DNA of 64,000 nucleotides from Gemmatimonadaceae bacterium (GTDB lineage: Bacteria; Gemmatimonadota; Gemmatimonadetes; Gemmatimonadales; Gemmatimonadaceae): contig DASUHB010000029.1 in the NCBI GenBank assembly GCA_036273715.1, positions 1 to 64,000 on the forward strand, read 5' to 3'. Every line of letters starts with the position of its first letter. The stretch's first letter is position 1. The translations under genes and the position numbers were made by a program. Below are positions 53,916 through 57,035 of this stretch, piece by piece. Under the pieces are notes generated by a model that was given only the letters and a program-made list of their open reading frames with translations, had not been told where the DNA came from and ran no database searches.

Positions 53916-55970
53916 CTACCAGATGTGCGCGCGCAGGCTGTCGGGGCGGACCATCGGGTCGCCGTCCTTGCAGCCCCACGCGGCCCTGAACTCGGGCATG
54001 TTCGACAGCGGGCCATCCACGCGCCACTTACTCGGCGCGTGCTCGTTGACGTTCACGAGCGTCCGCTGCATTTCCGGCCGCATCTGCTCGCGCCACACCT
54101 GCGCCCAACTGAGGAAGAAGCGCTGCTCGGGCGTGAAGCCGTCGATGAGCGGGGGCCGCCCCTTGTCCTTGAGCGACTTCTCGAGGGCCAGGTACGCGAT
54201 CTTGAGGCCGCCCAGGTCGCCGATGTTCTCGCCTAACGTCAGCTTGCCGTTGACGTGCGTGCCGGAGTCGACCACGGTGTAGCTGTTGAACTGATCGACG
54301 ACGAGCTTGGCCTGCGCGTTGTACTTGGCCGCGTCTTCGGCGGTCCACCAGTCGCGGAGATTCCCCTTGGGATCGAACTGGCGGCCCTCGTCATCGAAGC
54401 CGTGCGTCATCTCGTGTCCGATCACCGCGCCCATGGCGCCGTAGTTCACGGCGTCGTCGGCGTTCGGATCGAAGAACGGCGGCTGCAGGATCCCGGCCGG
54501 GAACACGATCTCGTTCATCTGCGGATTGTAGTAGGCGTTGACGGTCGGAGGCGTCATGCCCCACTCGGTGCGATCCACCGGCTTGCCCAGGCGAGACCAG
54601 TTGTCGGCGCGCCGGAAGTCGGAGGCGTGGCGGAGATTGGCCAGGTAGTGGCCGGGCTCCACCTCGAGCTTGCTGTAGTCCTTCCACTTGTCGGGGTAGC
54701 CGATCTTTTTCGTGAACGCATCGAGCTTCTCGACGGCGCGCTGCTTCGTGCTGTCGCTCATCCAGGCCAGCTGCTGGATGTCGGCGCGCAGCGTGGCGAC
54801 GAGGTTGTCGACCATCGCCAGCGCGCGCGCTTTCGCGGCGGGCGTGAACGTGCGCTTGACGTACTCCTGGCCGATGGCCTCGCCTAACACGCCGTTGGCG
54901 GTGGCGGCGCAGCGCTTCCACCGCGGCAGCTGCTCCTTGGCGCCCGTGAGGTGCTGCGACCACTTGAAGTTCTCATCGGCGAACCTGGATGGCAGCGCGC
55001 CCGCCGTGTTGTCCAGCAGGTGCCAGCGGAGGTAGGCCTTCCACGTCGCGACGGGCACGCTGGTGAGGAGCGAATCCGCGGCGCTGAAGAAGGCCGGCTG
55101 GGCGACGTTGATCTCGCGCACCACCGGTGCGCCTAACGAATGGAGGAAAGCCTGCAGGTCGACGTCGGGCGTGAGCTTCTGCATGTCCGACAGCGGCATC
55201 TTGTGATAGGTCGCGTTCGGATCGCGCATCGCGACGCGCGGCATGGAGGCCTGGGCCAGCTTCGTCTCGAGATCCATGATCTGCTGCGCATCCGCGGACG
55301 CCTCGCTCTCGCTCTCGCCCGAGAGCTGGAGCATCGTCGTCACGTGCGCCACGTAGGCATCACGGAGCGCCTTGCTCTTGTCGTCGGTGCGGAAATAGTA
55401 GTCGCGCTCCGGCAGGCCCAAGCCACCCTGGCCGGCGTTGGCGATTTCTTCGCTCGAGTTCTTGGTGTCGGGCCGCACGAAGAAGCCGAACGGCGCGAGG
55501 CCGGCCTGCGCGTCGAGTTTGCCCAACGAGGCGCGCAGCGACTCGCTGCTGTTGATCGCGGCGATTTCCTGGAGCTGCGGCTCGATCGGCTTCGTGCCTA
55601 ACGCTTCGATCGCCGTCGTGTCCATGCAGGCATCGTAGAACGTGCCGACTTTCCATTCGTTGGTCCCGGGCTTGGCTTTCCGGTCCCGCACGGCTGCCGC
55701 TTCGTCGTCGAGGATCTGATGGACCACGTTGGTGTTGTGATCCTGCAGCTCGTTGAACGACCCCCAGGACGAGTAGGCGGCCGGTATGCTGGTCTTCGCG
55801 ATCCAGCCGCCGTTGGCGAAGGTGTAGAAGTCCGTGCATGGCGCGCACGTCGTGTCGAGATTCGCGCGGTCCAGCGGATGCGAGGCGCCCGTCTGTTGGG
55901 CAGCGAGCGGCGCCGCACAGGTGAGTGACACCGCCGCCGCGGCGATCGTGCGAACCAGATGTGGTCTCAT
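53916..55970 (-). CDS. Secreted M13-family (neprilysin-like) zinc endopeptidase
   Basis: A 684-residue peptidase with signal peptide (about 1-24, PLAAQ). Zinc site VIGHEMTHGFDDEGRQFD gives HExxH, with the third ligand Glu and Asp in LGENIGDLGGLKIAY. NAYYNPQMNEIVFPAGIL is the substrate-binding motif and the C-terminal tryptophan end (HIW) is typical. These enzymes degrade peptides outside the cytoplasm. ATG 55970 fits the signal. It is divergent from the phhA leader and convergent with the DUF4097 gene. Confidence 0.93.
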   Translation of the reverse strand: MRPHLVRTIAAAAVSLTCAAPLAAQQTGASHPLDRANLDTTCAPCTDFYTFANGGWIAKTSIPAAYSSWGSFNELQDHNTNVVHQILDDEAAAVRDRKAKPGTNEWKVGTFYDACMDTTAIEALGTKPIEPQLQEIAAINSSESLRASLGKLDAQAGLAPFGFFVRPDTKNSSEEIANAGQGGLGLPERDYYFRTDDKSKALRDAYVAHVTTMLQLSGESESEASADAQQIMDLETKLAQASMPRVAMRDPNATYHKMPLSDMQKLTPDVDLQAFLHSLGAPVVREINVAQPAFFSAADSLLTSVPVATWKAYLRWHLLDNTAGALPSRFADENFKWSQHLTGAKEQLPRWKRCAATANGVLGEAIGQEYVKRTFTPAAKARALAMVDNLVATLRADIQQLAWMSDSTKQRAVEKLDAFTKKIGYPDKWKDYSKLEVEPGHYLANLRHASDFRRADNWSRLGKPVDRTEWGMTPPTVNAYYNPQMNEIVFPAGILQPPFFDPNADDAVNYGAMGAVIGHEMTHGFDDEGRQFDPKGNLRDWWTAEDAAKYNAQAKLVVDQFNSYTVVDSGTHVNGKLTLGENIGDLGGLKIAYLALEKSLKDKGRPPLIDGFTPEQRFFLSWAQVWREQMRPEMQRTLVNVNEHAPSKWRVDGPLSNMPEFRAAWGCKDGDPMVRPDSLRAHIW

Positions 55971-56050: not shown

Positions 56051-56079
56051 TTGACATCCGCTGGTTAGCCGCCTACCGT
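56051..56079 (+). promoter_or_regulatory. Promoter of the phhA leader
   Basis: Perfect -35 TTGACA (56051-56056), 17-base spacer, -10 TACCGT (56074-56079). The expected start of transcription (about 56085-56087) coincides with the ATG of the leader peptide, so the leader mRNA may be leaderless. This fits the lack of a Shine-Dalgarno for the leader. Confidence 0.6.
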
Positions 56080-56086
56080 ACGAGCC

Positions 56087-56173
56087 ATGAATCGCGCGCC
56101 GCGCAGCTACTCCTACCGCTATTACTACGTGCCCCGAGCCACGGGACGCGAGCGGAGGCGTGTGCGCGACTGA
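56087..56173 (+). CDS. Tyrosine-rich attenuator leader peptide of phhA
   Basis: A 28-codon open frame directly downstream of the promoter. It reads MNRAPRSYSYRYYYVPRATG followed by a basic end, with Tyr at positions 8, 10, 12, 13 and 14. Five Tyr codons in seven is far above chance and matches leader peptides of amino-acid attenuators, where the ribosome senses charged tRNA. The stop codon TGA (56171-56173) precedes an intrinsic terminator by 24 bases, and phhA, whose enzyme makes tyrosine, follows. Position and pairing are described under the attenuator entry. Confidence 0.75.
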   Translation: MNRAPRSYSYRYYYVPRATGRERRRVRD

Positions 56174-56231
56174 ACAAGTTGCGACATGAGATCCCCGGCG
56201 GCCCGTGGAAGTTCCACGGGCCGCTTTTTTT
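56128..56231 (+). promoter_or_regulatory. Transcription attenuator with mutually exclusive hairpins upstream of phhA
   Basis: Four segments can be traced. Segment 1 (56128-56134, CGTGCCC, starting at the last Tyr codon) pairs with segment 2 (143-150 side of 56139-56149). Segment 2, CCACGGGACGC, pairs with segment 3 (56198-56208, GCGGCCCGTGG) in 10 of 11 positions. Segment 3 also pairs perfectly with segment 4 (56214-56224, CCACGGGCCGC), the terminator. Segments 2 and 4 are near copies, the hallmark of attenuation. A ribosome stalled at Tyr codons covers segment 1, frees 2 to pair with 3 and lets transcription continue. Without stalling, 1:2 forms and 3:4 terminates. Confidence 0.75.
56198..56231 (+). 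terminator. Intrinsic terminator in the phhA leader
   Basis: Perfect 11-bp GC-rich stem (56198-56208 with 56214-56224), loop AAGTT, followed by seven T (56225-56231). It is located 27 bases upstream of the phhA ATG and downstream of the leader peptide. No gene ends in this direction just before it, so its natural role is attenuation. Confidence 0.88.
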
Positions 56232-56258
56232 GTCCCCCTCAGGCAGGAGAGCACGACC

Positions 56259-57035
56259 ATGCAGCAGGCAGACACCGGCAGCGCCGCCGCGCCGCACGAC
56301 GCATCAGAGGACGCCGACCTTCCCGCGTTCATCGAGCAGGATTACGCCCGCTATGACCGCGAATCGCACGCGGTGTGGCAAATCCTGTATGAGCGCCGGA
56401 TGATGACCCTGCGCGACACGGGGAGCGAGGTGTTCCTGAACGGCATCGAGCGCATCGGCCTGGCATCGGATCGCGTTCCGGACCTCGTCGACGTGAATCG
56501 ACGGCTCGGGGCGCGCACGGGATGGCGCGCGGTGGGCGTGGCGGGCTTCATCCCCGCCGCCCAGTTCTTCCGGTGTCTGGCGCAACGCCGCTTCCCGACG
56601 ACGCTCTCGGTGCGGCCGCGAAGCCAGCTCGATTATCTGCCGGAGCCCGACATTTTCCACGACGTGTTCGGCCACGTGCCCCTGCACGCCGAGCCCATCT
56701 TCGCGGATTTCCTGCAGCGGTTCGGCGAGTTGGGCGCGGCCGCGCGGAACGAACAGGAAACCGAAGCGCTCGCCCGGCTGTTCTGGTTCACGGTCGAATT
56801 CGGGCTGATCGAGGAGGGCGAAGGCCCGCACGTCTACGGCAGCGGCCTCATCTCCTCCCACGGCGACGCGGCCAACGCGTTAGGCCCGTCCTGCGAACGG
56901 CGGCCGTTCAGCCTCGATGCCGTCATCGCGCAGCCGTTCGAGATCGACCACTTCCAACCGGTGCTGTTCGTGGTGCCGTCGTTCGATTCGTTGTACCGGG
57001 CGGTGGAAGAGTTAGGCGCACGGTTCGCATCGTGA
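56259..57035 (+). CDS. phhA: Phenylalanine 4-monooxygenase (phenylalanine hydroxylase)
   Basis: Hydroxylates Phe to Tyr with non-heme iron and tetrahydropterin. The 258-residue length is that of bacterial PAH. Iron ligands are His134 and His139 (DIFHDVFGHVPLH) and Glu180 (FWFTVEFGLIEEG), spaced as in the Chromobacterium enzyme. Pterin and substrate contacts RPRSQLDYLPEPD and GSGLISSHGDA are present. ATG 56259 has AGGAGA nine bases upstream. The pterin carbinolamine dehydratase is not adjacent. Control by the leader attenuator suggests it serves tyrosine synthesis rather than Phe breakdown (inference). Confidence 0.95.
   Translation: MQQADTGSAAAPHDASEDADLPAFIEQDYARYDRESHAVWQILYERRMMTLRDTGSEVFLNGIERIGLASDRVPDLVDVNRRLGARTGWRAVGVAGFIPAAQFFRCLAQRRFPTTLSVRPRSQLDYLPEPDIFHDVFGHVPLHAEPIFADFLQRFGELGAAARNEQETEALARLFWFTVEFGLIEEGEGPHVYGSGLISSHGDAANALGPSCERRPFSLDAVIAQPFEIDHFQPVLFVVPSFDSLYRAVEELGARFAS

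Follow-up and report, generated by a model that had tools for sequence, protein, structure and literature searches.

A predicted tyrosine-reading transcription attenuator before phenylalanine hydroxylase genes, and its codon-swapped relatives, in Gemmatimonadota

The region upstream of phhA in the Gemmatimonadaceae genome considered here carries a real and conserved attenuator that, judged from sequence comparison, reads tyrosine; the comparative case for it is unusually complete. We hold it to be very likely that this leader is a ribosome-mediated transcription attenuator of the trp/his/phe type, which would read charged tRNA-Tyr and control phhA. The element belongs to a scaffold family that is spread over the class. 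With less assurance, we also favor a broader reading: that Gemmatimonadota use a single leaderless attenuator scaffold that has taken on different regulatory codons (Tyr, Phe, His, Thr) in coming to control phhA, tyrA, aroF, pheA, hisG and thrA; that its Tyr form is the first described ribosome-mediated attenuator for Tyr alone; and that PhhA is a Tyr-making rather than a breakdown enzyme in these organisms.

The window, i.e. the whole stretch of 64,000 nucleotides that was analysed, comes from contig C29 of the draft genome G000, and its phhA shows 87% identity to that of the nearest named relative in our collection. The features of the locus are as follows:

56051-56079, forward strand: sigma-70-type promoter TTGACA-17-TACCGT (TTGACA 56051-56056, 17 nt, TACCGT 56074-56079), from the sequence
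56087-56173, forward strand: leader ORF of 28 codons, ATG at 56087 to TGA at 56171-56173, MNRAPRSYSYRYYYVPRATGRERRRVRD, from the sequence and kept in relatives
56120-56128, forward strand: TAT TAC TAC, three Tyr codons in a row, the presumed main stall codons, from codon-column conservation
56128-56134, forward strand: segment 1, whose partner is 56143-56150 with a bulged A56146, from covariation and, in part, RNAalifold
56139-56150, forward strand: segment 2, a near copy of segment 4 that can partner segment 1 or segment 3, from 2:3 covariation
56198-56209, forward strand: segment 3, both the 5' arm of the terminator and the 3' arm of the antiterminator, from sequence, covariation and folding
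56213-56231, forward strand: segment 4, the 3' arm of the terminator (56213-56224) followed by T7 (56225-56231), from sequence and covariation
56245-56249, forward strand: Shine-Dalgarno AGGAG of phhA, from the sequence
56259-57035, forward strand: phhA, phenylalanine 4-monooxygenase, the gene under proposed control (PF00351, E 9e-45; NF008877 above cut-off)

The phhA product possesses a Biopterin_H domain (PF00351) and scores 299 bits against the NCBIfam equivalog NF008877 (cut-off 247), and lies slightly under the cut-off of TIGR01267 (257 vs 264.75). Its divergent neighbor (53916-55970, reverse strand) codes for an M13-family endopeptidase (PF05649, PF01431). The original prediction had described the promoter, and a 28-codon leader with Tyr at codons 8, 10, 12, 13 and 14 (five Tyr in 28 codons) and a stop at 56171-56173: direct reading recovered the former at its place and the latter to the base. 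It had also described the terminator as a perfect 11-bp hairpin with seven T, of which the hairpin and the T7 stand and the length does not: the stem has 12 perfect pairs plus one G-U, with arms at 56198-56209 and 56213-56224 and the loop AGT. The near copy of the terminator 3' arm that had been noticed inside the leader is indeed present (CCACGGGACGC, 56139-56149, against CCACGGGCCGC, 10 of 11 identical), as is the pairing of 56128-56134 with 56143-56150 around one bulged A. Downstream of segment 2 we observed a conserved stretch, GGAGGCGT (56154-56167), which in the window pairs with the Tyr-codon stretch, lengthening 1:2.

The leaders of trp-type attenuators sense the amino acid whose codons they carry. 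In the mechanism that we propose for phhA, RNA polymerase would begin transcribing at, or immediately beside, the leader AUG, where translation by a ribosome would set in at once. With ample Tyr-tRNA this ribosome would pass the Tyr codons and reach the stop, and 1:2 would re-form behind it, leaving segment 3 free to pair with segment 4, so that transcription would end at the T run before phhA. With scarce Tyr-tRNA it would instead stall on the Tyr codons, covering segment 1: segments 2 and 3 would then pair, the terminator would be blocked, phhA would be transcribed and Tyr would be made from Phe. The start of this process is suggested by the promoter. The leader ATG of the window lies 7 nt past the -10 hexamer, and an exact TTGAC is found 35-38 nt 5' of the leader ATG in all 28 of the phhA leaders that have one (10 are without any) and at 35-40 nt in 54 of the 57 other members of the scaffold family that have it. 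This distance, together with the 17-nt spacer, puts the predicted start of transcription at the AUG or directly beside it; hence, the leader mRNA is probably leaderless.

We gathered phhA upstream regions from relatives, among which 38 distinct loci with the leader form the comparison set. In each of these, phhA is preceded by a Tyr-rich leader ORF and then by a GC-rich hairpin with a T run after it; both of the alternative pairings and the terminator are kept, with compensatory changes. One outcome had been named beforehand as counting against the original prediction: that relatives fail to conserve the Tyr codons or the 2/4 copy. Both are kept across the 38 loci. The leader is missing upstream of about 16 close phhA relatives, which indicates that this control is not universal. 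It is likewise absent from the Planctomycete phhA upstream regions and from those of a second, more distant Gemmatimonadota phhA subfamily of the same order, with the exception of L154 (G093:C292). This distant phhA (about 41% identity) has a Tyr leader of its own with another terminator sequence; this leader may have been gained independently. We also observed leader-phhA loci in MAGs labelled Acidobacteriales/Acidobacteriaceae (L039, L043, L046), which might reflect inter-phylum transfer or mis-binning.

The pairings were evaluated in an alignment for covariation (A1), with two controls: the partner slid by 1-3 columns, and 500 shuffles. The 1:2 and 3:4 pairs are formed in 89.3% of the cells of A1, as against 30-46% when slid, and show 39 two-sided changes, as against 9.6 in the shuffles, none of which is as high; among relatives, two-sided change is seen in 4 of the 7 pairs of 1:2 and 7 of the 12 pairs of 3:4. 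The 2:3 pairs are formed in 84.3% of cells (29-42% when slid), with 15 two-sided cells (0/500 shuffles as high) and 6 pairs altered on both sides (7/500). In some relatives (L042, L111, L118) all three segments have changed together. Unaided, RNAalifold finds most of the 3:4 stem and some of 1:2. The window leader folds with z = -4.75, and its RNA without segments 1 and 4 has the 2:3 hairpin as both the MFE and the centroid fold, with z = -4.39; given these values and the recurrence with covariation in 38 relatives, the anatomy of the leader is more than chance. Thus, a Tyr-rich leader ORF, an intrinsic 3:4 terminator before phhA and mutually exclusive, covarying 2:3 and 1:2 pairings are all found at this locus. 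Around the leader stop codon, a further conserved hairpin looked convincing by eye but was dropped, as its combined p against shuffles was 0.46.

Folding models of the 38 leaders point to the same alternation. With a ribosome placed at the last Tyr codon and segment 4 not yet made, 2:3 has a median probability of 0.81; the median is 0.00 in naked RNA, and that of 3:4 is 0.98 in full-length RNA. A point against the attenuator reading is that naked-RNA folding populates the 1:2 stem only in part in several relatives. When the segment-1 stretch is shuffled, 34 of the 38 leaders show more 2:3 in naked RNA, implying that segment 1 is part of what restrains 2:3.

Across the 38 leaders, Tyr accounts for 134 of 984 codons (13.6%) and Phe for 9 of 984 (0.9%); the background rates, from five in-frame proteins of the window, are 2.1% and 3.7%, respectively. 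This more than sixfold enrichment of Tyr is restricted to an 8-codon stretch adjoining segment 1, within which the number (1 to 5) and order of Tyr vary freely between leaders. Taking the last Tyr codon column, occupied by Tyr in 34 of 38 leaders, as offset 0, the occupied range is -7 to 0, and the eight codons past it hold a single case of Tyr among the 38. Modelled ribosome stalls give a median 2:3 probability of about 0.75-0.8 at offsets -8 to 0, and of 0.61, 0.07 and 0 at +1, +2 and +3. From this range and the loss of 2:3 at later stalls, the run of Tyr codons is predicted to stop close to the point at which a stalled ribosome starts to cover segment 2: codon offsets and stall folding agree in placing the regulatory codons where a stall would hide segment 1 and not segment 2.

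With a covariance model built from the phhA leaders alone (R1), we searched the order (288 genomes) and the phylum (395 genomes). The model recovered leaders of the same scaffold before several other genes: hisG, with 13 distinct leaders having 24% His; pheA, with 14% Phe; aroF (DAHP synthase, often followed by tyrA), with 13% Tyr and 7.5% Phe, the Tyr/Phe leaders of L209-L229 and others in many cases having tyrA next on the same strand; tyrA, with 15% Tyr; and thrA, with runs of Thr codons before ThrA-like aspartate kinase/homoserine dehydrogenase genes (L306, G447:C195; L309, G419:C92). The window's own genome has such a His-rich leader, MHAHRVTHHHALHHHGPTGRGGARMRMTR, before hisG (L241:252-370; G000:C73:54431-54549, forward strand). 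Since R1 derives only from phhA leaders and spans at most the last two Tyr positions, the match of codons to products in these sister elements tests the codon rule independently. These leaders amount to a natural codon-swap experiment for attenuation, and the covariance model can be used to annotate operons with such leaders in Gemmatimonadota. The phylum-search matches listed with E of 1e-8 or lower all belong to one class (families f1, f2, f4, f5 and f6); a plasmid search gave no match. A weak R1 match precedes a citramalate synthase gene (L274, G044:C269), with the leader MTPTHPRALGNIIRLPLSARGGARARG, perhaps an Ile/Leu form. Matches before purA (L250, L254, L255, L261, L263, L279, L281) have no fitting leader and were rejected as likely reflecting only similar terminators. 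Together, covariation, codon placement and the codon-product match of the sister elements support the 1:2, 2:3, 3:4 logic of trp-type attenuation that had been proposed for this leader, and with it the original prediction of Tyr-sensing attenuation overall; that phhA itself responds to Tyr-tRNA by ribosome stalling and readthrough of the terminator is what we infer from them.

What the attenuator is for is a separate question from how it works. It could serve Phe/Tyr breakdown, with a catabolic phhA being shut when its product accumulates. A 4-hydroxyphenylpyruvate dioxygenase scores above cut-off in 22 of the 25 leader-phhA genomes searched, so Tyr breakdown also occurs in most of them, which allows for such a role. 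However, a gene for breakdown would be expected to be induced by its substrate Phe, and repression by Tyr would oppose Tyr breakdown; the scaffold elsewhere sits on biosynthetic genes; neither the window's genome nor G202 has the dioxygenase above cut-off; and several leader-phhA genomes, including the single-contig G251, are without TyrA above cut-off. We therefore regard the catabolic purpose as unlikely. TyrA above cut-off is absent in 14 of 23 good-quality leader-phhA genomes, an association that is modest and ignores kinship. PDH_N matches in G251 (25.1 bits) were not accepted as TyrA: they fall short of the cut-off and resemble an F420-type oxidoreductase instead. The window's genome has a divergent TyrA-like gene (PDH_N 42.6 bits, PDH_C); hence, PhhA need not be its only source of Tyr. 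There is precedent for a biosynthetic role: in Dyella, Echinicola and Legionella, GapMind reports that phenylalanine hydroxylase provides a route to Tyr (PMC7311316). Because it is the product Tyr that the leader reads, rather than the substrate Phe, PhhA, an enzyme usually treated as catabolic, is predicted to serve Tyr supply, and cells of these soil Gemmatimonadota with this phhA probably make Tyr through it only when Tyr is short. Given the leader-phhA genomes without TyrA above cut-off, oxygen-dependent hydroxylation may be how an entire lineage makes its Tyr.

The reading of Tyr-tRNA has itself to be weighed against a TnaC-like arrest peptide, in which the nascent Tyr-rich chain or free Tyr, rather than a shortage of Tyr-tRNA, would stall the ribosome. 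The C-termini of the leader peptides do share the pattern TGR..RRR.R, as might be expected of such a peptide, but the common TGR falls in segment 2, a stretch that is conserved in its RNA pairing; this, the free variation of Tyr in number and order, and the His, Phe and Thr leaders, which preserve the scaffold and change nothing but the codons, to fit the gene product, make an arrest peptide most improbable. We give as little credence to a fixed leaky terminator beside an unrelated short ORF, with constant low phhA expression and no response to Tyr: a terminator that separates a gene from its promoter can hold expression at a constant level, but the confined Tyr enrichment, the covarying 2:3 antiterminator, for which a plain terminator has no need, and the codon-product match of the sister elements all speak against it.

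Attenuation by a leader peptide is a known kind of mechanism; its sensing of Tyr alone, its phhA target and the swappable scaffold appear to be undescribed in the literature that we searched, in which no phhA attenuator and no leader-peptide attenuation in Gemmatimonadetes was found, subscription journals being mostly outside its coverage. In Pseudomonas, according to PMC1173090, phhABC is controlled by PhhR/sigma-54: this too regulates phhA, but through a protein activator of a catabolic operon. The same source predicts putative terminator/antiterminator pairs 5' of aroA-tyrA and hisHb-tyrA operons; these differ in belonging to other phyla and to tyrA operons, and the part available names neither a Tyr leader peptide nor phhA. 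Tyr T-boxes are a known means of Tyr control (PMC1262725) and, like the phhA leader, would link the charging of tRNA-Tyr to a terminator, in their case by sensing the uncharged form; a T-box, however, has no leader peptide, and no curated T-box model matches in the leader region (Rfam at gathering and E up to 1). The aroR attenuator of Corynebacterium glutamicum has a leader peptide with Tyr and Phe codons before a DAHP synthase gene, and the Gemmatimonadota aroF members match it in gene and codons; its Phe-Tyr-Phe leader before aroF is reported to respond to Phe and not Tyr (Neshat et al. 2014, as summarised in PMC11802643), whereas the phhA leaders are Tyr-rich and nearly without Phe. No Rfam family (Phe_leader, His_leader and others) matches the phhA leader at gathering or E up to 1. 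With the pheL-pheA, hisL-his and trpL-trp attenuators of Escherichia coli, the phhA leader shares a leader peptide with the codons of the product, three alternative hairpins and a terminator before the gene; it is set apart from them by its Tyr codons, its phhA target, its unrelated sequence and its probably leaderless mRNA.
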